From Bacillus niameyensis (GTDB lineage: Bacteria > Bacillota > Bacilli > Bacillales > Bacillaceae_C): a stretch of DNA of 64,000 nt. Under the pieces are notes generated by a model. It saw only the letters and a list, made by a program, of their open reading frames with translations. It did no database searches and was not told the DNA's origin. The translations under genes were made by a program, and so were the position numbers. The stretch is from contig NZ_LN831197.1 of NCBI RefSeq assembly GCF_001375535.1, forward strand, positions 747,719 through 811,718, in the 5' to 3' direction. Shown here piece by piece: positions 19,826-64,000 of the stretch (positions are counted from its first letter, which is position 1; each line of letters opens with the position of its first letter).

Positions 19826-20070
19826 CATTGAACGTTGAAGAAGGATTAGTATACGAATTTTGTTGTGACAGAGAGCGAAATTTAAGAGCTGGAAGATTTC
19901 GCCACTAACAAACCGTAGAACCTACCTTTTGAGTCCTGTGACAAAAACACAGGCGTGTACCTACGTTATAGGAAAAGCGGGATGTTTCTTGACATCCAAT
20001 TATGGTGGTACCGCGGAAGCTAAGTCCTTTCGTCCTTAAAATCGAGGATGATGGGGCTTTTTATTTTTTA
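19826..20070 (+). ncRNA. T-box leader (tRNA-Pro sensing) upstream of proB
   Basis: The leader has Stem I features (the GACAGAGAG motif near 19867), a probable specifier region GAA-CCT-ACC (CCT at 19921-19923, a proline codon) followed by TTTTGAGT, and the conserved T-box TGGTGGTACCGCGG (20003-20016). It ends in a terminator formed by AGTCCTTTCGTCCT and AGGATGATGGGGCT before a T-rich tract (20057-20070). Uncharged tRNA should pair with the specifier and with the T-box bulge and stabilise the antiterminator, switching on proline synthesis. T-box control of proBA is known in B. subtilis. Confidence 0.93.
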
Positions 20071-48651: not shown

Positions 48652-48667
48652 TACAATAAATTACAAG

Positions 48668-48767
48668 TATACGTGACTGGCGTAACGTGGAGGACCACGA
48701 GGGAGCGTATATTACAGATGCCGTACGCCTGGGCTAAGTATTTGATCCATGATCAAATACTTTTTTT
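48668..48767 (+). ncRNA. ZTP (pfl-type) riboswitch with terminator
   Basis: The conserved pfl/ZTP blocks are present in order: GTGACTGGCG (48673-48682), the ACGTGG...ACCACGAGGGAGCG hairpin region (48685-48706), and CCGTACGCCTGGGC (48721-48734) that forms the pseudoknot arm. A terminator stem AGTATTTGATC / GATCAAATACT and T7 tract follow (48738-48767). These aptamers bind ZMP/ZTP, the signal of 10-formyl-tetrahydrofolate shortage, and usually turn on purine or folate genes. Here the downstream genes are a DJ-1/PfpI and a VOC protein, and the terminator stem does not clearly overlap the aptamer. Confidence 0.9.
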
Positions 48768-48797: not shown

Positions 48798-49400
48798 ATG
48801 AGGATAGGGTTCGTATTATTTGACGGCATGACAAACATGGATTTTGCTGGATTTTATGAAGCAATTACTTGGCTAGCAATCCTGGAGGCGAAAGAAAATG
48901 TAACATGGTCATTTTGTGCTAATAAAGCGGATGTGACAGATGACCGAGGGCTAAATATGAAAGTAACTGAAGTGCTACCAGATTTAGGGAAATTTGATTT
49001 AGTTTTTCTTCCAGGCGGCATATCTACAAGAATGCTTCGGTATGACGATATGTTCGTGGAATGGATCCAAACCGCTAAGACTGCTACTTATAAGGTTTCC
49101 GTTTGTACAGGGGCGCTGTTATTAGGCGCAGCTGGATTTTTACATGATAAAAGAGCGACTACTAACTCGTCAGCATACGAATTATTAACACCATACTGTG
49201 CGGAAGTTATAAAGGCACGGGTTGTAAGAGATGGCAACATTGTTACTGGGGGAGGCGTTACTTCTTCAATTGACCTAGGTCTGTATATGGTCGAAATGTT
49301 AACGAATTCTGAAGTTGCCCGACAGGTGCAAAATAAACTGGAGTATCCCTATTATCAAGTTGGCAACTTGGGGGATATTTACATGGGGAGGCAGCAATGA
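48798..49400 (+). CDS. DJ-1/PfpI family protein
   Basis: A 200-aa glutamine-amidotransferase-like protein with the DJ-1/PfpI fold: GFVLFDGMTNMDFAGFYEA (the Glu near the active site), VFLPGGISTRML, and the nucleophile elbow VSVCTGALLLGAAGFL (Cys about 102). It is closest in style to the isonitrile-hydratase/ThiJ subgroup. ATG 48798 after AGGGAAGTGAAAGG. Lies under the ZTP riboswitch and overlaps the VOC gene (ATGA). The reaction is unknown; a role in folate, purine or one-carbon stress is suggested by control only. Confidence 0.85.
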   Translation: MRIGFVLFDGMTNMDFAGFYEAITWLAILEAKENVTWSFCANKADVTDDRGLNMKVTEVLPDLGKFDLVFLPGGISTRMLRYDDMFVEWIQTAKTATYKVSVCTGALLLGAAGFLHDKRATTNSSAYELLTPYCAEVIKARVVRDGNIVTGGGVTSSIDLGLYMVEMLTNSEVARQVQNKLEYPYYQVGNLGDIYMGRQQ

Positions 49401-49893: not shown

Positions 49894-50208
49894 TTACGAG
49901 ACAAGTTTTAACCCAACAGCAGCTCCTAATATGATTCCTATGAAAACAAGCCTTCTCCAGTCTCTTGATTCGCCATATAAAAGCATGCCTAAAATGGCAC
50001 CACCAGAAGCTCCAATTCCGGTCCATATTGCATAAGCTGTGCCCATAGGAAGTGTTTCCATTGAATATGCAAGAAATAAAAAACTTGCACCAAATCCAAG
50101 AATTAAAAGAACTAATGATTGCCAATTACGATCATTGTGCAATTTATTAATCATTACTACACCAAACATTTCACATAAACCCGCTAAGATTAAGGAAATC
50201 CATGCCAT
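49894..50208 (-). CDS. gdnD: SMR-family guanidinium exporter subunit GdnD (YkkD-like)
   Basis: A 104-aa four-helix small multidrug resistance protein: [20 protein letters not shown] with the essential membrane Glu14, then METLPMGTAYAIWTGIGASG and the final helix. It pairs with the upstream SMR gene; the two overlap by one base. As the operon has a guanidine-I riboswitch, it is best read as YkkD/GdnD, half of the heterodimeric guanidinium/proton exchanger. Size and sequence match. Confidence 0.9.
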   Translation of the reverse strand: MAWISLILAGLCEMFGVVMINKLHNDRNWQSLVLLILGFGASFLFLAYSMETLPMGTAYAIWTGIGASGGAILGMLLYGESRDWRRLVFIGIILGAAVGLKLVS

Positions 50209-50549
50209 TAGATATCATCGCCTTCCTGAATGTTGTCTTTTGTAACTAATTTCAAGCCAATGACTCCTGCTATTAAGGCTAAAATTAGAAGTATTTTTGC
50301 TACTTTAAAAGGTTCACCAAAGAATAGAATCTCAGAAAAGACCGTTCCAGCAGTTCCTAATCCAACAAAAACGGCATAAACAGTTCCCACAGGTAGTTTT
50401 CGTCCAGCCATAATCATTACATAAAAACTAATAACGATAGAAATAACCGTTCCGGTCCAGGTCCAAAAATCGTTAGCATGTTTTAAGCCAATAACCCACA
50501 AAACTTCGAAAAAAGCAGCAATAATTACCTTAAGCCAGTCTTTATTCAT
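50208..50549 (-). CDS. gdnC: SMR-family guanidinium exporter subunit GdnC (YkkC-like)
   Basis: A 113-aa four-helix SMR protein: [20 protein letters not shown] with the membrane Glu (residue 15), then [20 protein letters not shown] and a final helix followed by a short polar tail. First gene after the guanidine-I riboswitch; GGAGGTTGTTTAA precedes ATG 50549 on the minus strand. Forms the exporter with GdnD. In B. subtilis ykkCD is controlled the same way. Confidence 0.92.
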
Positions 50550-50582: not shown

Positions 50583-50709
50583 AAAAAAAAAGCCTAGGAG
50601 ATAACTGTAAACAGTTTCTCCCAGGCTTTTATCCTTCCGTGACACAGTGTTTAGCTGTGAGTCTTCTCTCGGACCAGACCAACATAGTGATTGTTGCGGA
50701 ACCCTAGAA
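50583..50709 (-). ncRNA. Guanidine-I (ykkC) riboswitch with terminator
   Basis: Reading the minus strand, the ykkC consensus blocks appear in order: TCTAGGGTTCCGC, GGTCTGGTCCGAGAG, then GTCACGGAAGGATAAAAGCC and TGGGAGA. The last block is also the 5' arm of a terminator (AAGCCTGGGAGA pairing with TCTCCTAGGCTT) ending in T9 at 50583-50591. Guanidinium binding should hold the last block in the aptamer and prevent termination, switching on gdnC-gdnD. Sequence identity to the class is unmistakable. Confidence 0.96.
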
Positions 50710-50736
50710 AACATTTAACATATGCAATTATCTTGT

Positions 50737-53726: not shown

Positions 53727-54527
<801 letters not shown>

Positions 54528-55094: not shown

Positions 55095-55559
55095 TCAATT
55101 TCTGTTAAATAGATAATTCCTAGGTGTTCCGAAATTGACTAATTTGCTATATTGCTCAAATACTGAATTAAATTGTACTAAAATAGGTGCATCAAGTAGC
55201 CATGGAACGTGTTGAAATAATGCGAAATCCGATTGAATTATAAAAGATAGCATTTCAGGAATCGATGTTTTCCATTGATTATACCGATTTCGAACTCTTT
55301 CTTCATTCTCATGACCTTCATCCATGTACACTATACCCACTAGTACATATTCACCCAGCTTTGGCATCCATTCCAATCTTAATTGGTCTCCCTTATTTGT
55401 ATTAAATCCAAGCATATTATTTGCCGTTTCAATGGTTAGTACCTGCGCATTCCCCTCCTCACTCCATTTCATCGTATATTTTCGTCCGTCCACAGGTCCG
55501 AATGAAGTGGCAGGCGGTACAATCATAACAGTAAACTGCCCGGATTGGAGCTTTTCCAT
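55095..55559 (-). CDS. Staygreen-domain protein
   Basis: A 154-aa cytoplasmic protein with FTVMIVPPATSFGPVDGRKY, WMPKLGEYVLVGIVYMDEGH and VPWLLDAPILVQFNSVFEQY, followed by a FGTPRNYLF end. This matches the bacterial staygreen family; plant members remove Mg from chlorophyll and bacterial homologues have Mg-dechelatase-like activity in some cases, but the Bacillaceae role is unknown. GGGGGAG precedes ATG 55559 on the minus strand. A weak hairpin (AGCCGGA/TCCGGCT, 55057-55080) follows the gene. Confidence 0.7.
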   Translation of the reverse strand: MEKLQSGQFTVMIVPPATSFGPVDGRKYTMKWSEEGNAQVLTIETANNMLGFNTNKGDQLRLEWMPKLGEYVLVGIVYMDEGHENEERVRNRYNQWKTSIPEMLSFIIQSDFALFQHVPWLLDAPILVQFNSVFEQYSKLVNFGTPRNYLFNRN

Positions 55560-55700: not shown

Positions 55701-56645
55701 TTATGCCATCAGTGCCACCATTAAAGCTTTTTGCACATGCAGCCGATTTTCTGCTTCATCAAAAACATATGATTGTGGTCCGTCAATTACTTCCGCAGTC
55801 ACCTCTTGCCCACGCTTTGCGGGCAGACAGTGTAGGAAAATAGCATCTTTGTTCGCAAAACTCATTAATTCTGCATTCACTTGGTATGGCTGGAATGCTT
55901 TTAGTCTAACTTCTTGTTCTTCTTCCCAGCCCATGCTCGTCCATACGTCTGTATACACAGCATCTGCTTCGTGAACTGCTTCCTTAGGATCATTTGTGAC
56001 GATTAAAGATGCTCCCGTTTCACTTACAACCTTTTTGCATAAATCAATCACTTCGGCTTTTGGTTCATATCCTTCCGGAGTTGCTATAGAACAATCAACA
56101 CCCAGTTTTGCACATGCAATCATTAAAGAATGTGCCACATTATTCCCGTCACCTATATAGGCTAATTTTTTCTTATTAAAAGTCCCTTTCGCTTCATAAA
56201 GAGTCATCAAATCCGCCAATGCTTGACACGGATGAAAATCATCAGTTAACGCATTGATCACAGGGATGCTTGAATTAGCCGCTAATTCTTCAACAGCAGA
56301 ATGTTCATGGGCACGAATCATGATACCATCAACATAACGTGATAAAACCTTTGCAGTGTCTGGAACTGTTTCCCCTCTTCCTAGTTGGATGTCATTACGG
56401 CTTAAAAATAATGCATGACCACCTAGTTGACTCATTCCGACCTCAAAGGAAACGCGTGTTCTAGTAGATGATTTTTCAAATATCATCGCTAACGTTTTCC
56501 CTTTTAAATAATGGTGAACAACGCCATTGTGTTGCTTTTCCTTTAATTCAATTGCTGCATCTATAATCTGGGTAATTTCCTCTCCTGAAAAATCTGCTAA
56601 TGTTAGGAGGTGCTTGCCCTTTAAGCTGTTTACTAACGTTTCCAT
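55701..56645 (-). CDS. argF: Ornithine carbamoyltransferase ArgF
   Basis: Transfers the carbamoyl group to ornithine to form citrulline. The 314-aa protein has the carbamoyl-phosphate motif STRTRVSFEVG (about 54-64), GRGETVPDTAKVLSRY, FHPCQALADL, and HCLPAKRGQEV (about 268-278) with the catalytic Cys. Start overlaps the carB stop by one base. Last gene of the operon; a terminator follows. Confidence 0.97.
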   Translation of the reverse strand: METLVNSLKGKHLLTLADFSGEEITQIIDAAIELKEKQHNGVVHHYLKGKTLAMIFEKSSTRTRVSFEVGMSQLGGHALFLSRNDIQLGRGETVPDTAKVLSRYVDGIMIRAHEHSAVEELAANSSIPVINALTDDFHPCQALADLMTLYEAKGTFNKKKLAYIGDGNNVAHSLMIACAKLGVDCSIATPEGYEPKAEVIDLCKKVVSETGASLIVTNDPKEAVHEADAVYTDVWTSMGWEEEQEVRLKAFQPYQVNAELMSFANKDAIFLHCLPAKRGQEVTAEVIDGPQSYVFDEAENRLHVQKALMVALMA

Positions 56646-59600
56646 TACATCACCTTTTCTTTTTCTACCATTTTATCATGCCATTCCTGAAGAGAAACTG
56701 GTTTAACCTTCTTCTTTTGATTCTTAGCTGCTAAATAAGTTAACATTGTTTCCATCTCTGTTATGACAGAAACTTGAGCACTTGAAGCTTGCATCCGCAT
56801 TTGTTTAGATTGATCCGACTTTCCAAAACTAATAAGAATAGCATGCCTACTCTTTTTCAACCATTCAGTGAAAGGCATATGATCATTAGCAATAAATGCA
56901 TCGTGTTTTTTCAACTCGTCCTTAATTGCTTTGAAGTCTTTATCTTCTTGAGCGTCAATATAAACATTTAGATTCTTTCCCTCTTCGTCTGTTTTCCAAT
57001 TAATGGCCTTTGCTAACGCTTCATCAAATGTATTCCCAAAAGCAATTAACTCTCCTGTTGATTTCATTTCAGGAGTTAAAATGGGATCCACTCCATTTAA
57101 TTTTCCAGTTGAAAAAATGGGATTTTTTATAGCGTAGTACGATTGTTTATAGTTGTTTGGTATTTGGAAATCCTTACCAATCAATATATTTATACTTTCT
57201 TCTATTAAGTTAACACCCGTCATTTTACTAATGATTGGTACAGTTCGTGATGCACGCGGGTTAACTTCTAATACAAATAGCTCATTTTGATAGATAACAA
57301 ATTGCACATTGAAAATACCTTTAAATTTGAGCTTTTGAGCAATTTTCTCCGTAAATTCGAAAGCACACTTTTGCAGATCAGACGAAATGCTAATTGGGGG
57401 TGTAACGGCAATACTATCTCCAGAATGGACTCCTGCTTTTTCAATATGCTCGAAATATCCAGGTATATAAATATTTTCCCCATTAGATAAAACATCAACT
57501 TCCATTTCAGTTCCCTTATAATATGCATCTATTAAGACAGGATAATGAATATTATGCACATGATTTTCCAAATCTTCTTCAGCCTGGATAATAAGCATGC
57601 CCTGCCCACCAATTACATAGGATGGTCTTAATAGTAAAGGAAAACCGATATCTTTAATTTTTTCCTTCAATTCACTTTCATTTATAACAGTTACCCCAGG
57701 TATATGGGGAATTTTCAGCTCTTTTAATAAAGAATAAAAACGATCGCGATCTTCAAGAAAATCAATTTGTTCTTGAGAGATTGAAAGTAGCGGCACTCCG
57801 TTTTCTTCCAAATCCTTCGCTAAATTAATCGATGTTTGCCCACCAAACTGAATAATTACTCCTTCAGGTTTCTCATGTTCTAAAACATTTAAAACATCTT
57901 CAGTACTGAGCGGTTCAAAGTATAGGCGATCAGCTATTTGAAAATCCGTACTGACGGTACCTGGATTATTATTAATAAGAATTGTCTCATACCCTGCTTT
58001 TTTCAAAGCTAAAACACCGTGGACAGTACAATAATCAAATTCTATCCCTTGCCCGATCCGAACTGGTCCAGATCCGATGATGGCAATTTTCGGTTTTCCT
58101 GTTACTGTAACCGGATCACCTTGCCCCTTCCAAGTTGAATAAAAATAGGGCGCCGCTGCCGGAAATTCCCCTGCACATGAATCTACCATATTATAAACTG
58201 GCAAAACTTCTAACTGTTTGAGTTTTTCTCGAACTGCTTTATATTCTATGTTCCAAATTTTAGCTAACCATTTATCTGAGAAACCAAAGATCTTTAATTC
58301 TCGCAGTAAATCTTGATCGATTGTAGCTAGAGTTTGTTGTTTCGCCTTTTCCTCCATCGCCACTAAAAAGGAAAGGTTCTCTAAGAAAAACAGATCAATT
58401 TTCGTTGTTTCATGGAGATTTTGAGTAGTAATGCCTCTTCTCATTAGTTCCAAAATGGAGAAAAAACGTAAATCATCAGGTTTTTGAATTGAATCCCATA
58501 GTGTTTCATCGTCTATCTCCGAAATTCCTTTTAACTCAAGGCCAATCGTTTTCATTTCTAATGAACGGACAGCTTTTTGAATAGCACCAGGGAGGTGGCG
58601 ATCAATCGCCATAATTTCACCTGTCGCTTTCATTTGGGTGCCTAAAGTTCGATCTGCACCAACAAATTTATCAAATGGCCATCTAGGCATCTTAACTACA
58701 ACATAGTCTACGACAGGCTCTGTGCTAGCATAAGTAGTTCCTGTAACAGGGTTAAGTAATTCATGGAGATGATAACCAAGTGCCAATTTTGCGGCCATTT
58801 TTGCGATTGGATAGCCTGTTGCTTTAGATGCTAGAGCCGATGATCTACTAAGTCTTGGGTTTACTTCAATTAAATAATATTGATCGGAATTTGGATCATG
58901 AGCAAATTGAATATTACAGCCCCCGATTATTTTTAAAGCGCGAATTATCTTTACTGCAGATGTATAAAGATTTTCAAATTCTTGATCGTTTAAAGTTTGT
59001 TGGGGTGCTATGACAATAGAATCACCCGTATGCACACCAACTGGGTCAAAGTTTTCCATGCTACAGATAGAAATACAAGTATCATTTTCATCACGGATCA
59101 TTTCAAATTCTAATTCTTTAAATCCTGCAATACTTTTTTCTATTAAACATTGAGTAATAGGACTTGCGTCAAGGCCTTTCGCTACTACCGAAACGAGTTC
59201 TTCACTATTTGAAACAATGCCCCCGCCACCGCCTCCTAATGTATAAGCCGGTCTAATAATAACAGGGTAACCAATTTGATTGGCAAAGTTTAATGCTTCC
59301 TGAATGGTATGAATAATAGCACTTTCAGGTACAGGTTCCTCTAAATCATGCATCAGTGATCGGAATGCTTCTCTATCTTCCCCTTGTATGATCGATTCTG
59401 GAGATGTTCCTAACACTTCAACATTATGACGTTCTAATATTCCTTCTTGATACAACTGAACGGTTAAATTAAGACCTGTTTGACCTCCAAGAGTTCCTAA
59501 AATACCATCTGGTTTTTCCTTTTCGATTATTTGCTCAATACTTTTAGTCGTCATAGGTTCAAAATATACAACATCAGCAAACTCTTCATCCGTCATAATT

Positions 59601-59758
59601 GTTGCGGGATTATTGTTTACAAGAACAACTTCAACCCCTTCTTCTTTCAGTGCCATGCAAGCCTGTGTTCCGGCGTAATCAAACTCTGCTGCCTGACCGA
59701 TCATAATCGGACCTGAGCCGATCACTAAGACTTTCTTGATGTCATTTCTTTTAGGCAT
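56645..59758 (-). CDS. carB: Carbamoyl-phosphate synthase large subunit CarB (arginine-type)
   Basis: Synthesises carbamoyl phosphate from bicarbonate, ATP and ammonia. The 1037-aa chain has two homologous ATP-grasp halves: IGSGPIMIGQAAEFDYAG (about 13-30) and IGSGPVRIGQGIEFDYC (about 555-571), RPAYTLGGGGGGI and RPSYVIGGQGMLI loops, and a C-terminal allosteric MGS-like domain (about 930-1037). Length matches the arginine-specific, not the longer pyrimidine-type, CarB. Overlaps carA by 8 bases and argF by one. The partner CarA appears to lack glutaminase chemistry. Confidence 0.95.
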   Translation of the reverse strand: MPKRNDIKKVLVIGSGPIMIGQAAEFDYAGTQACMALKEEGVEVVLVNNNPATIMTDEEFADVVYFEPMTTKSIEQIIEKEKPDGILGTLGGQTGLNLTVQLYQEGILERHNVEVLGTSPESIIQGEDREAFRSLMHDLEEPVPESAIIHTIQEALNFANQIGYPVIIRPAYTLGGGGGGIVSNSEELVSVVAKGLDASPITQCLIEKSIAGFKELEFEMIRDENDTCISICSMENFDPVGVHTGDSIVIAPQQTLNDQEFENLYTSAVKIIRALKIIGGCNIQFAHDPNSDQYYLIEVNPRLSRSSALASKATGYPIAKMAAKLALGYHLHELLNPVTGTTYASTEPVVDYVVVKMPRWPFDKFVGADRTLGTQMKATGEIMAIDRHLPGAIQKAVRSLEMKTIGLELKGISEIDDETLWDSIQKPDDLRFFSILELMRRGITTQNLHETTKIDLFFLENLSFLVAMEEKAKQQTLATIDQDLLRELKIFGFSDKWLAKIWNIEYKAVREKLKQLEVLPVYNMVDSCAGEFPAAAPYFYSTWKGQGDPVTVTGKPKIAIIGSGPVRIGQGIEFDYCTVHGVLALKKAGYETILINNNPGTVSTDFQIADRLYFEPLSTEDVLNVLEHEKPEGVIIQFGGQTSINLAKDLEENGVPLLSISQEQIDFLEDRDRFYSLLKELKIPHIPGVTVINESELKEKIKDIGFPLLLRPSYVIGGQGMLIIQAEEDLENHVHNIHYPVLIDAYYKGTEMEVDVLSNGENIYIPGYFEHIEKAGVHSGDSIAVTPPISISSDLQKCAFEFTEKIAQKLKFKGIFNVQFVIYQNELFVLEVNPRASRTVPIISKMTGVNLIEESINILIGKDFQIPNNYKQSYYAIKNPIFSTGKLNGVDPILTPEMKSTGELIAFGNTFDEALAKAINWKTDEEGKNLNVYIDAQEDKDFKAIKDELKKHDAFIANDHMPFTEWLKKSRHAILISFGKSDQSKQMRMQASSAQVSVITEMETMLTYLAAKNQKKKVKPVSLQEWHDKMVEKEKVM

Positions 59759-60803
59759 ACATTTTTACTCCTTTACTCTGTTCCAGTTGCTGGAAATAGG
59801 CCGATTTCATAAGCGCCTCTAGTTTAAGATTCCTTCCATCTGGATGAAATTGATAAGTATTAATCGGATATTTCTCATGTGTAAGTCCTTCAATGGAACC
59901 GTCCTGTATTGAAAGAAATGAAGGTTTAAAACCGGTTAATTCAAGCTCTTTATTTGAGACACTGTAGCCGTGATTTTGATTCGATGAATATATCTTTTTT
60001 GTTTCAATATGAATAATAGGCTGCCTGAAATTTCGATGGCCCCATTTCATTTTGTCAACTTTTGCACCGAATGAGAGAGCTAATATTTGATGACCGAGTC
60101 CGAAACCGATAGTTGGGAATTTTGTGGCTAGTTCTTTGTAATCTTTTAAATATTTATTCCAAACTGTTGGATTTCCGGAACCCCCAGAAAAAACAAGACC
60201 ATCTGGCTCTAGCTTATTTATTTCCGAAAAATTCGTCTCACCAGAAATAATGGTAAGTTTATAATCTAAACAACGAAGCCAAGAAATTAGTGATTTTTTA
60301 ATACCGAAGTCAAGAACAACTAGATGTTTTTCACTATTAGGATTAATTACTTCTTTTCCACTTCTTCCTAGTATCGTTTTTTTAATAATTGTCTTTGATA
60401 CTTCCTCATAATCAGCATAAATCGTGGCAGACATTTCTCCATTATTTAAGAGATCCTTTACCATTGCCCTTGTATCTGTTCCTGTTAAGACAGGAATAGA
60501 TTGTTCTTTAAATAGAGACATCCACTTTTGGGTTGTAATCGAGGTTTTCAATAACTCTTGTTGAGTAACCAAGGCTGCTAGTTGAAGATCTTCACTTTCA
60601 AAATTAGATAAATCAAAGCTTGAATGTAAGACACCAGGATAAGTAACGATAACTATTTTCCCTTTTATAGCAGGGTCTGTCATAAATTCTAGGAAATTTC
60701 CCATACCTGTATAAAATATAACGTCTCCTGTATATTCCCCTATGTCCCCGTGCCAATGGCCGGTATACCGTTTTCCATTAGCAAATTTTAGAATACCTTC
60801 CAT
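59751..60803 (-). CDS. carA: Carbamoyl-phosphate synthase small subunit CarA, glutaminase site degenerate
   Basis: Small subunit that normally hydrolyses glutamine for CarB. The 350-aa length, N-terminal CPSase_sm domain and C-terminal class I amidotransferase fold fit CarA, and the position in the arg operon confirms it. However, the nucleophile motif normally reading GICLGHQ is GFGLGHQ (Gly235, codon 60099-60101), NGPGDP is GGSGNP (about 207-212), the conserved YPLIGN segment is YPGVLHSS, and the catalytic His-Glu is His320-Asp322. Other motifs (GTDTRA, KMKWGHR, NQNHGYSVS) remain. The frame is intact, so the gene is expressed but probably cannot use glutamine in the usual way. Confidence 0.88.
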   Translation of the reverse strand: MEGILKFANGKRYTGHWHGDIGEYTGDVIFYTGMGNFLEFMTDPAIKGKIVIVTYPGVLHSSFDLSNFESEDLQLAALVTQQELLKTSITTQKWMSLFKEQSIPVLTGTDTRAMVKDLLNNGEMSATIYADYEEVSKTIIKKTILGRSGKEVINPNSEKHLVVLDFGIKKSLISWLRCLDYKLTIISGETNFSEINKLEPDGLVFSGGSGNPTVWNKYLKDYKELATKFPTIGFGLGHQILALSFGAKVDKMKWGHRNFRQPIIHIETKKIYSSNQNHGYSVSNKELELTGFKPSFLSIQDGSIEGLTHEKYPINTYQFHPDGRNLKLEALMKSAYFQQLEQSKGVKMYA

Positions 60804-60876: not shown

Positions 60877-62025
60877 TTAGCTAACCTTATGAAATAATGT
60901 ACTCTTCATAATTTCAATCGACTTTTCTAATTCTTCATTGGTGACTGTCAATGGTGGGAGCAAACGTATAACATTCGGTCCAGCATTTAAGACAATTAAA
61001 CCGCTCTTCCTTAATTCAGCAAGCATTGGAGCAACTTCATCTTCAAATTCTAAACCAAACATTAATCCTTTATAACGTATCCCTTTAAAGTTCGGCATTT
61101 CGCTAAATAATTGTTGGAGTTTTCCCGCCAAAAATTCACCTTTTCTTTGAACTTCTAAAAGGAATTTGTCATTAAAAATCGTATCTAGCGTCTCTTTAGC
61201 GGCTGCCATTGCTAATGGATTCCCACCAAAGGTTGACCCATGACTTCCGGGGTTAAAGGTAGATTTCAATTCTTCTTTAGCGATTATCGCTCCGACAGGA
61301 AAGCCATTTCCAAGTCCTTTAGCAGATGTAATAATATCCGGTGAAATGGAATAATGTTGATAACCAAAAGGTTTTCCGGTTCGGCCAATCCCTGTTTGGA
61401 CTTCATCTACTATTAGTAACGTTCCATATTCGCAACAAAGTTTTTCGATTTTATTTAAAAAATCCTCTCTTGCTGGATGTACTCCACCCTCGCCTTGAAT
61501 AACTTCTAGCATAATAGCAGCTGTGTCAAAGTCGATTGCCTCTTCGAGAGCTTGAATGTCATTATATGGTACATGTATAAACGTTTCTAGCATGTTTCCA
61601 AAACCTTGTTTCACTTTATCCTGACCAGTTGCAGCCATCGTAGCAAAAGTACGTCCATGAAAGGATTGCTTAAACGTAATAATTTTAGATTTACCTGTAT
61701 GTTTTCTTGCCAGTTTTATTGCTGCTTCATTCGCTTCAGCTCCGCTATTACAAAAGAATACTACATCTCCAACAGAATTAGCGGTTAGCCTTTCAGCTAC
61801 CTCTTCCTGTAATGAACTTTTAAATAAGTTCGAAGTATGCCATAATGTTTTAGTTTGCTCAATCAGAGCATCGACAATTTTCGGATAGCAGTGACCAAGA
61901 TTACAAACACCTATTCCAGCTGTAAAATCCAAATATTCCTTCCCCTCTGAATCGATTACAATCGTTCCGTTTCCAGAAGTAAGTTCCAAATCCCAACGGC
62001 CATAATTTTCGAATAGAAAACTCAT
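60877..62025 (-). CDS. argD: Acetylornithine aminotransferase ArgD
   Basis: PLP-dependent class III aminotransferase of arginine synthesis. The 382-aa protein has FFCNSGAEANEAAIKLAR (about 86-103), LIVDEVQTGIGRTG (about 200-213), the PLP-lysine in ITSAKGLGNGFPVGAI (Lys about 239), and GSHGSTFGGNPLAMAAA. Follows argB by 2 bases and precedes carA by 73 bases in the operon. Confidence 0.96.
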   Translation of the reverse strand: MSFLFENYGRWDLELTSGNGTIVIDSEGKEYLDFTAGIGVCNLGHCYPKIVDALIEQTKTLWHTSNLFKSSLQEEVAERLTANSVGDVVFFCNSGAEANEAAIKLARKHTGKSKIITFKQSFHGRTFATMAATGQDKVKQGFGNMLETFIHVPYNDIQALEEAIDFDTAAIMLEVIQGEGGVHPAREDFLNKIEKLCCEYGTLLIVDEVQTGIGRTGKPFGYQHYSISPDIITSAKGLGNGFPVGAIIAKEELKSTFNPGSHGSTFGGNPLAMAAAKETLDTIFNDKFLLEVQRKGEFLAGKLQQLFSEMPNFKGIRYKGLMFGLEFEDEVAPMLAELRKSGLIVLNAGPNVIRLLPPLTVTNEELEKSIEIMKSTLFHKVS

Positions 62026-62027
62026 CT

Positions 62028-62807
62028 CTAATTCACTGCCTCCAATTCTTTTTGAATGGTCGTTCCAATGAAATGAACTCCTTTAAATAAAGGTGTTTTC
62101 CCACTGACGATCATCACTTCATTCATTCCACCATCTATACTTTTGATCGCAGCCATTACTTTAGGGATCATACCACCTGAAATGGTACCATTCTCAATTA
62201 AATCCATCATTTCAGATTTAGTTGTTTTTTCAATCAACTGATTTTCTTTTAAAATTCCAGGAACGTCTGTCACAAATAGTATTTTTTCTGCTTGGACAGC
62301 TAGTGCAATAGCTGCAGCAGCTGAGTCCGCATTCACATTATAAAAATGATTTTTATCCTCGCTTACAGCAATTGGAGAAATAACGGGTATCATACCGATC
62401 GAGAGCAAATCAAATATAAAGCTTTGATTGACGTCAGTAATTTCTCCTACAAGGCCTAAATTCTCAGAATCCTTTGCTTTGCCGCTCATTAATCCCCCGT
62501 CTGAACCAGTGATGCCAATCGCTGAAATTCCATGTTTTTGCAGTGTGCGAACTAATTTATTCGTCATACTGCCCGATAAAACCATTTCAACAACTTCCAT
62601 CACTTCATGAGTTGTTTTCCTTAGCCCATTAATGAATTCGGCTTGAATTTGCAAACTATCGAGTAATTTATTAATCGCGGGTCCTCCCCCATGAACGATT
62701 ATAGGTTTATATCCATGACTTTGAATTTTTTTGATATTCAAGAAAAATTCATCTGACAATGTCTCAATCATACTGCCGCCACATTTGATGACAATGATTT
62801 TATCCAT
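62028..62807 (-). CDS. argB: N-acetylglutamate kinase ArgB
   Basis: Phosphorylates N-acetylglutamate. Amino-acid-kinase fold, 259 aa: VIKCGGSM (start), VHGGGPAINKLL, FINGLRKTTHEVMEVV, YNVNADSAAAAIA, and GGMIPKVMAA near the C-terminus. The short form without the N-terminal extension of arginine-feedback-inhibited hexameric kinases, as in Bacillus. Preceded by a good ribosome site on the minus strand (GGAGGAAGGATATC). Confidence 0.96.
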   Translation of the reverse strand: MDKIIVIKCGGSMIETLSDEFFLNIKKIQSHGYKPIIVHGGGPAINKLLDSLQIQAEFINGLRKTTHEVMEVVEMVLSGSMTNKLVRTLQKHGISAIGITGSDGGLMSGKAKDSENLGLVGEITDVNQSFIFDLLSIGMIPVISPIAVSEDKNHFYNVNADSAAAAIALAVQAEKILFVTDVPGILKENQLIEKTTKSEMMDLIENGTISGGMIPKVMAAIKSIDGGMNEVMIVSGKTPLFKGVHFIGTTIQKELEAVN

Positions 62808-62838: not shown

Positions 62839-64000
62839 TCACGTTCGATAACTCGCATTTATTCTTACATATTCATATGTTAAATCGCATCCCCAAGCTT
62901 TACCCGTTCCGGATCCGATATTTAGATTAATGTCGATTTCTACCTTTTCTTGCTGTAAATAATTACTTAAAACTTCTTCGCTATAATCAACCGGTTCACT
63001 ATCTTGGAGCAAAGAGTTCGGACCGATTGAAATATCAATCGTTTCAGGGTTTAATGTAATGCCGCTCCGACCAATCGCCATCATTAATCTACCCCAGTTA
63101 GGATCAGCACCATAGACCATTGTTTTAACAAGATCTGAGCCAACAACCGTCTTAGCACATTTCCCTGCATCTTCATTAGAGAGTGCACCATTCACAGTTA
63201 CTTCAATTAATTTCGTCGCACCTTCTCCATCTTTAGCAATCATAATAGCCAAATCTTCACAAACCTGATTCAACAGTTGCGTAAATGTTTCCCATTCTTC
63301 ATGTTTAGGTGAAAGGGGCTCATTTCCTGCTAACCCATTGGCCATTACGAGTACCATATCATTTGTAGATGTGTCTCCATCAACAGTAATACGATTAAAC
63401 GTTTGATTCGTAACATCCCGTAAGGCTATTTGCAAATGTTCATGTGAAATGGCAGCATCTGTTGTAATAAAACCTAGCATTGTAGCCATATTAGGTGCAA
63501 TCATTCCTGAACCTTTAGCAGAGCCAGCCATCGTTATCTTTTTTCCATTGATGTACGTTTCATAACAGGTTGTTTTCTTACACGTATCTGTTGTTAAAAT
63601 GGCTTCATTAAAATCTTCGGCAGCTTCATTACTTTTTGACGGTTTTAGTTTTTGAATACCTGGGATAATTTTATCCATTGGCATTTTTTCTCCAATTACC
63701 CCTGTTGATGCAACTGCAACATAGTGACTTTTGATTAAAAATGTATCTGATACCGCTTTTTTCATTTCATTGGCATCCAATAATCCTTGTTTTCCCATAC
63801 AAGCATTAGCATTGCCACTATTAATTACAACGGCTTGAAGTTTACCTTCCTGGTCCAAACTTTCCTTCGTCGTAAGGAGAGGTGCTGCAATAATTTGATT
63901 CAATGTGTATACAGCGGCTGAGTCTGCGGGAACCTCACTGTAAATGATCCCTAAATCATTGCGTTTACGTTTAACTTTTGTATGAAGGCCTGCTGCTGAA
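62839..64000 (-). CDS. argJ: Bifunctional glutamate N-acetyltransferase/ornithine acetyltransferase ArgJ (5' end outside window)
   Basis: Recycles the acetyl group between N-acetylornithine and glutamate and can also acetylate glutamate from acetyl-CoA. The frame stays open to base 64000 (AAGLHTKVKRKRNDLGII), so the N-terminus lies beyond the right edge. The self-cleavage and nucleophile site is in MATMLGFITTDA (Thr after Ala), followed by RITVDGDTSTND and GEGATKLIEV and a C-terminal end of typical type. Visible part about 387 aa. First gene of the operon within the window. Confidence 0.96.
   Translation of the reverse strand, partial: SAAGLHTKVKRKRNDLGIIYSEVPADSAAVYTLNQIIAAPLLTTKESLDQEGKLQAVVINSGNANACMGKQGLLDANEMKKAVSDTFLIKSHYVAVASTGVIGEKMPMDKIIPGIQKLKPSKSNEAAEDFNEAILTTDTCKKTTCYETYINGKKITMAGSAKGSGMIAPNMATMLGFITTDAAISHEHLQIALRDVTNQTFNRITVDGDTSTNDMVLVMANGLAGNEPLSPKHEEWETFTQLLNQVCEDLAIMIAKDGEGATKLIEVTVNGALSNEDAGKCAKTVVGSDLVKTMVYGADPNWGRLMMAIGRSGITLNPETIDISIGPNSLLQDSEPVDYSEEVLSNYLQQEKVEIDINLNIGSGTGKAWGCDLTYEYVRINASYRT

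Follow-up and report, generated by a model that had tools for sequence, protein, structure and literature searches.

Among the closest described systems are the CPS II enzymes of E. coli and B. subtilis (CarAB and PyrAA-PyrAB), with which the proteins analyzed here share subunits, domains and operons, and whose synthetase residues they keep. They differ from CPS II in that the nucleophile Cys is absent from both small subunits and that PyrAA mostly lacks the catalytic His. Vertebrate CPS I (PDB 5dot and 6uel) likewise keeps a glutaminase-homologous region and is ammonia-dependent; its glutaminase Cys is replaced by Ser, and the enzyme is a mitochondrial protein made as a single fused chain, with N-acetylglutamate as its activator. 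Unlike fused CPS I, the proteins described here are separate bacterial subunits (carA/carB and pyrAA/pyrAB), with two paralogues that have changed together, from Cys to Gly; with separate subunits, these Gly-type CPSases are not CPS I as a family. Laboratory mutants of E. coli CarA at C269 likewise lack Cys269 and are active with ammonia only, whereas the loss reported here is natural, old, present in two paralogues and associated with accompanying changes. A further type, CPS III, is presented as intermediate between glutamine- and ammonia-dependent CPSases, with activation by N-acetylglutamate (PMC6022934). For the E. coli CPSase, a review gives glutamine as the preferred and physiologically relevant donor, and an extension of that statement would be contradicted by a bacterial clade in which both CPSases lack the glutaminase Cys. 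Searches of an open-access library, which misses most subscription journals, brought up no description of a bacterial CPSase naturally devoid of this Cys.

The window, i.e. the whole stretch of 64,000 nucleotides of Bacillus niameyensis DNA that was analyzed (genome G000 of our set, 4.68 Mb, completeness 99.97), contains a cluster with the order argJ-argB-argD-carA-carB-argF, in which the gene names are our reading of the translations. Coordinates are given in Table 1. An earlier note on this DNA had claimed that CarA lacks the nucleophile Cys, and this was borne out when the protein was aligned with CarA chains from E. coli deposited in the PDB: Gly235, in the motif GFGLGHQ, stands at the position of Cys269 (occupied by Ser in PDB entries 1c30 and 1c3o, according to the alignment). 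The mapping proposed in that note also included His353 and Glu355, which correspond to His320, kept, and to Asp322, the replacement of the catalytic Glu of HPE being confirmed; no Cys is found at the nucleophile position. The same holds for the change of NGPGDP to GGSGNP, with both glycines (E. coli 241 and 243) retained, for the altered YPLIGN segment, which reads YPGVLH, and for the description of carA as a full-length gene overlapping carB within the arg operon. In addition, E. coli Ser47, which we take to be a glutamine contact, is Ala45 in this protein, while Gln239, Asn277 and Gly279 (E. coli Gln273, Asn311 and Gly313) are retained.

Table 1. Features of the window, with positions counted from its first letter
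Feature	Position	Strand	Remarks
carA	59751..60803	(-)	CPSase small subunit, 350 aa, Gly at nucleophile position
Gly235 codon GGA (E. coli Cys269)	60099..60101	(-)	From alignment
His320-Pro321-Asp322 codons (E. coli His353, Glu355)	59838..59846	(-)	From alignment
carB	56645..59758	(-)	CPSase large subunit, 1037 aa; start (59758) overlapped by the end of carA by 8 bases
CarB Tyr265 codon	58964..58966	(-)	Arg in all Cys-type relatives and all PyrAB read
argF (ornithine carbamoyltransferase)	55701..56645	(-)	Name from translation; last gene of cluster
argD (acetylornithine aminotransferase)	60877..62025	(-)	Name from translation
argB (acetylglutamate kinase)	62028..62807	(-)	Name from translation
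argJ	62839..63999	(-)	Name from translation; continues beyond window edge
Staygreen-family gene	55095..55559		PF12638, 85.3 bits
Free-standing ORF	53748..54527		LAGLIDADG_3 domain
Guanidine-I riboswitch	50616..50718	(-)	
Small multidrug resistance gene	50208..50549		
Small multidrug resistance gene	49894..50208		
DJ-1/PfpI gene	48798..49400		
ZMP/ZTP riboswitch	48663..48741		
T-box leader	19826..20040		98 bits

A whole-genome search with PF00988 (CPSase_sm_chain) yielded two small subunits in G000, CarA and PyrAA (79.1 and 186.6 bits, cut-off 27), and no third one. The PyrAA gene (G000:C6, loci L001 and L047) lies between pyrC and pyrAB, so that the second car/pyrAA-pyrAB set that the earlier note had recommended looking for does exist. 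Its small subunit reads GIGLGHQ, again with Gly at the nucleophile position, and has Glu331 in place of the catalytic His (QYEPE), while Glu333 is kept at the position of Glu355. The glutaminase Cys is, therefore, missing from every CPSase small subunit found in the genome, and regarding its loss as something particular to the arginine operon was too narrow, given that PyrAA of the pyrimidine operon has lost the same residue. Both proteins belong to the CPSase small subunits, as indicated by the CPSase_sm_chain domain and by similarity over the whole length: small chains of CPSases in the PDB match CarA with E values down to 3.6e-38, PyrAA 4-353 matches CPS I (5dot, 36-388) with an E value of 3.6e-57, and both exceed the cut-off of NF009475 (221; CarA, 252 bits). 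Judging from their residues, neither would be a subunit of a glutamine-hydrolyzing CPSase (CPS II). With TIGR01368, a model named glutamine-hydrolyzing (cut-off 307.35), CarA stays below the cut-off (241.6) and PyrAA passes it (440.7) although it has neither the Cys nor the His, a trap for naming.

The loss is not general among class-I GATase-like proteins, since the seven PF00117 matches of G000 other than CarA and PyrAA (nine in total) look ordinary and keep the Cys; we read them as PabA/TrpG-like, GuaA, PyrG (two matches), PdxT-like, C26-type and PfpI-type. There is thus no unexplained class-I GATase among the nine, which argues against one variant of an alternative mentioned in the earlier note, namely that another glutaminase supplies NH3 in trans, in this case a GATase docking on the dead small subunit.

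The small subunits were then compared in the 34 genomes (7 genera) of the GTDB family, where PF00988 has 69 matches, all of which were read. PyrAA is Gly-type in 23 of the 34 genomes (genera g1, g3 and g6) and Cys-type in the other 11 (g2, g4, g5 and g7). The native CarA is also Gly-type in 22 of the 23 genomes with Gly-type PyrAA; the only CarA of G005 is Cys-type, and G013 and G014 have a Cys-type CarA as an extra copy. In the 11 Cys-type genomes, all small subunits (21/21) have the Cys, CarA being Cys-type in 10 of them; the PF00988 search found no CarA in the remaining one, G022. The 45 Gly-type rows use all four Gly codons. The presence of Gly in 22/22 native CarA proteins of the clade, encoded by four different codons and under purifying selection (see below), establishes that Gly235 is neither a sequencing error nor a product of chance.

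The extent of the changes at other catalytic positions bears on the idea that the small subunits might still hydrolyze glutamine by means of another nucleophile. The retention of His320, Gln239, the two glycines and Asn277/Gly279 in CarA, and of Ser47 in 21 of the 23 Gly-type PyrAA proteins, would fit this idea, yet Gly itself cannot be a nucleophile, the catalytic His is lost in PyrAA of 21 of the 23 Gly-clade genomes, Ser47 is lost in 22/22 Gly-type CarA, and Cys269 and His353 of the E. coli enzyme are described as essential (PMC6245113). We consider this explanation extremely improbable; the known glutaminase chemistry is excluded by the loss of the Cys, which in PyrAA is mostly accompanied by that of the His.

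A tree built from all 69 proteins places the 23 Gly-type PyrAA in one clade (support 99) and the 22 Gly-type CarA in another one (100). Both branch in the same way, g3 splitting off before g6 and g1, with a long-branch warning for the CarA of g3. The 23 genomes also form a clade (100/99) in a tree of PyrAB with one row per genome. The simplest account would be a single change from Cys to Gly in each paralogue, on the same stem, retained since then. Over pairs with pS < 0.6, dN/dS was 0.17 and 0.13 for Gly-type CarA (18 and 9 pairs), 0.07 and 0.03 for Gly-type PyrAA (14 and 9 pairs), and 0.09 for both Cys-type PyrAA and Cys-type CarA (5 and only 2 pairs, respectively). Gly-type CarA and PyrAA are therefore under purifying selection and, with open frames in 69/69 small subunits and dN/dS of 0.03-0.17 in the Gly-type groups, carA and pyrAA are not pseudogenes.

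Changes accompanying the loss were searched for in both types of subunits. The nine synthetase residues checked in the first ATP-grasp half of the large subunits are intact, including those of CarB, whose allosteric domain has diverged. Position 360 of the small subunit (E. coli numbering) is Pro in 24/24 Cys-type rows and a different residue in 40/45 Gly-type rows and in 4/4 rows from outside the family, the alignment of CarA being less sure here because the whole surrounding stretch is altered. Residue 265 of CarB, Arg in PyrAB and in the outside rows, is Tyr in 22/22 proteins of the clade. In E. coli, the lining of the tunnel where the two subunits meet presumably includes small-subunit residues 360/361 and large-subunit residue 265, and Kim and Raushel are said to have mutated residues of this tunnel interface in 2004. 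In PyrAB of the Gly clade, only 8 of the 422 columns invariant in the Cys-type proteins are changed, 7 of them between positions 218 and 350 (p 1.4e-4, for a region chosen after seeing the changes). The carboxyphosphate domain, whose limits (residues 1-400) were taken from the review before the comparison, contained 7 of the 8 changes versus 230 of the 422 columns (p 0.058, marginal), or 5/5 at a stricter cut-off (p 0.047), and four control comparisons gave no excess. In PyrAA, 11 of 12 changed columns fall in the GATase part (p 0.02). The changes in CarA and CarB have no such focus: 50 of the 115 Cys-type-invariant columns of Gly-type CarA are changed, 30 of them in the GATase part (p 0.7), and 20 of 62 changes in CarB lie in the carboxyphosphate domain versus 230/422; this and the marginal p for PyrAB count against ammonia dependence. 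The most altered domain of CarB is the C-terminal, allosteric one, with 13 of its 16 invariant columns changed, some of them deleted.

The fast divergence of CarA (50/115 columns), its dN/dS of 0.13-0.17 versus 0.09 in Cys-type CarA (2 pairs), and the loss of 13/16 allosteric columns in CarB would be expected if arginine and uracil were scavenged, the CPSases mattered little and their glutaminase part were decaying. Some relaxation of constraint may indeed be at work, since Gly-type CarA evolves faster than Cys-type CarA. As an explanation of the loss, however, decay is very unlikely: all 69 frames are open and the operons intact, dN/dS of PyrAA is 0.03-0.07, PyrAB keeps 414 of its 422 invariant columns, and the Gly state persists through three genera.

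The distribution of nitrogen assimilation genes follows that of the two types of small subunits. A full-length large subunit of GOGAT (about 1500 aa) was found in 11/11 Cys-type genomes versus 4/23 of the Gly clade (G005, G013, G014 and G028), and AmtB in 10/11 versus 3/23 (G005, G013 and G014), these three being exactly the Gly-clade genomes with a Cys-type CarA. In G013 and G014, a stretch of about 20 kb holds the genes for GOGAT, GS and AmtB together with those for the Cys-type CarA-CarB, in a cluster that includes aminotransferase, DapF-like, DUF294 and exonuclease genes; in G005 the Cys-type CarA is on a different contig from the nitrogen cluster, and G028 has only the GOGAT-GS part. An NADP-type GDH class is present in 22/23 Gly-type genomes versus 3/11 Cys-type genomes (NADP-specific by model in G000, with 774.2 bits and a cut-off of 536, and assigned elsewhere from score and domain length). 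G017, a member of the Gly clade without this GDH, and G028, which has GOGAT, were counted as exceptions against the pattern. GS is present in 34/34 genomes. The PyrAB tree allows four independent contrasts, in which GOGAT goes in the same direction in 4/4 (3 in some pairings) and AmtB in 3 or 4, neither of them in the opposite one; four contrasts cannot reach significance, hence the p of 0.125 for the gene association. GDH gave no contrast on this tree, and GlsA and urease go, if anything, in the opposite direction. A survey of Bacilli calls the enzyme set complete in Bacillaceae, and its own table lists Lysinibacillus sphaericus without GOGAT (PMC3412718).

The four clusters (L173, L174, L175 and L177, in G013, G014, G005 and G028, respectively) contain genes for an AraC-type regulator, the large and small subunits of GOGAT, an aminotransferase, a DapF-like protein and GS (the cluster of G005 was analyzed with Pfam). 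Three of the clusters also have AmtB, DUF294 and exonuclease genes, and three adjoin hisF-like genes. A HisH-like gene was observed beside the nitrogen cluster in G005 and G028; a HisH-like protein is absent from the nine class-I GATase matches of G000. Urease was considered as a source of ammonia and discarded, a full-size match being present in 15/34 genomes and only a weak one, below the cut-off, in G000.

The other variant of a glutaminase acting in trans would be the cytosolic GlsA (PF04960). It is present in 26 of the 34 genomes, namely in each of the 20 whose CPSase small subunits are all Gly-type versus 6 of the other 14, a distribution that favors this variant and counts against ammonia dependence, and the protein of G000 is above the model cut-off (405.7 vs 255.4). 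On the other hand, Cys-type genomes of g4 also carry GlsA, the independent contrasts give no tie, and in the Gly-only genome G004 (L212) the GlsA frame is broken by a stop that separates two open pieces, for which a sequencing error is possible. Besides, free NH3 released by GlsA would still mean a CPSase that uses ammonia. With no third small subunit in G000 and only ordinary class-I GATases among its other PF00117 matches, we regard supply in trans, in either variant, as unlikely, and this part of the earlier interpretation is the less favored one.

The other part, in which the enzyme depends on ammonia and CarA stays on as a subunit, would now extend to both CPSases of the organism: they are probably ammonia-dependent, with glutaminase-dead small subunits kept as partners of intact synthetase subunits. 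This interpretation is strengthened by the identical loss in the second CPSase and by the association of the losses with the absence of GOGAT and AmtB. Cytosolic NH3 would enter, probably by way of the glutamine pocket, now empty, and of a changed interface between small and large subunits, as the loss of Pro360 and the PyrAB changes at 218-350 suggest, and could then travel along the old tunnel to the carboxyphosphate site. The small subunit would persist because the large one presumably needs it. The switch could be tolerated thanks to low-affinity ammonium assimilation via the NADP-type GDH and a presumably high internal ammonium. Further points against ammonia dependence are the conservation of His320, Gln239, Asn277 and Gly279 in CarA and the concentrations needed for the ammonia reaction of the E. 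coli enzyme, called likely physiologically irrelevant (PMC6245113). Since that enzyme needs very high ammonia, there would have to be high internal ammonium, which the gene set suggests, an improved enzyme, to which the interface changes point, or both. On the basis of the residues and gene content, the best reading is that free NH3 feeds these CPSases, in bacteria amply supplied with ammonium. They would thereby work like vertebrate CPS I, the urea-cycle enzyme, which is the known parallel.

To see how far the replacement extends, a motif survey of the order was done with GSNWTHGGNYTNGGNCAYCAR, a pattern that detects the change from Cys to Gly only and that other replacements would escape; it matched in 54 of 397 genomes. 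Among the 49 matches outside the family, 38 were rejected as CPSases, being ObgE (GIGLGHQFLRH and similar), and 7 were non-coding or in another protein. The other four are CPSases: CarA and PyrAA of G130 and CarA of G097 (both of family f22), and CarA of G181 (f17). G130 has, therefore, Gly in both CPSase small subunits. In the full tree its PyrAA joins the Gly clade (97), which would suggest transfer or shared origin, and it has the N271S, H272Y, T314S and P338S changes of the clade; its PyrAB has Y218F and L350I and is unchanged at 261, 264 and 316. When the 12 changed columns were removed, the G130 PyrAA fell outside all PyrAA of the family (90/80, not starred), and in the PyrAB tree the Gly clade holds without G130 (97), whose placement is weak (47) and whose branch is long. 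The double loss in G130 thus seems a case of convergence, apparently independent, against a Cys-type tree background made up of one family; exchange of the small-subunit gene is a less likely explanation.

A wider proposal can be put forward, for and against which we see equal weight. In at least two lineages of Bacillales, both CPSases would have become ammonia enzymes independently, Cys269Gly making the glutamine pocket an inlet for NH3 and the loss of Pro360 together with the changes near residues 218-350 of the large subunit retuning the tunnel for NH3 from solution. The replacement would mark a GDH-based life on abundant ammonium, without GOGAT or AmtB, and regaining or retaining GOGAT-GS-AmtB would bring with it a Cys-type CarA too. 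If this is true, bacterial CPSases are not universally glutamine-dependent. The Gly clade would offer natural and possibly ammonia-tuned CPSases for comparison with CPS I, and an instance of one loss that is shared by two paralogues and recurs in a different family.

Other features of the window were also observed (Table 1). A Staygreen-family protein is encoded beside argF; the host belongs to a bacterial group that is not known to be photosynthetic. A free-standing ORF has, besides its LAGLIDADG_3 domain, a weak homing-endonuclease match. The ZMP/ZTP riboswitch lies ahead of the DJ-1/PfpI gene, and a T-box leader was detected at 19826-20040. Finally, the guanidine-I riboswitch is located ahead of the two small multidrug resistance genes, which probably constitute a guanidinium exporter pair.
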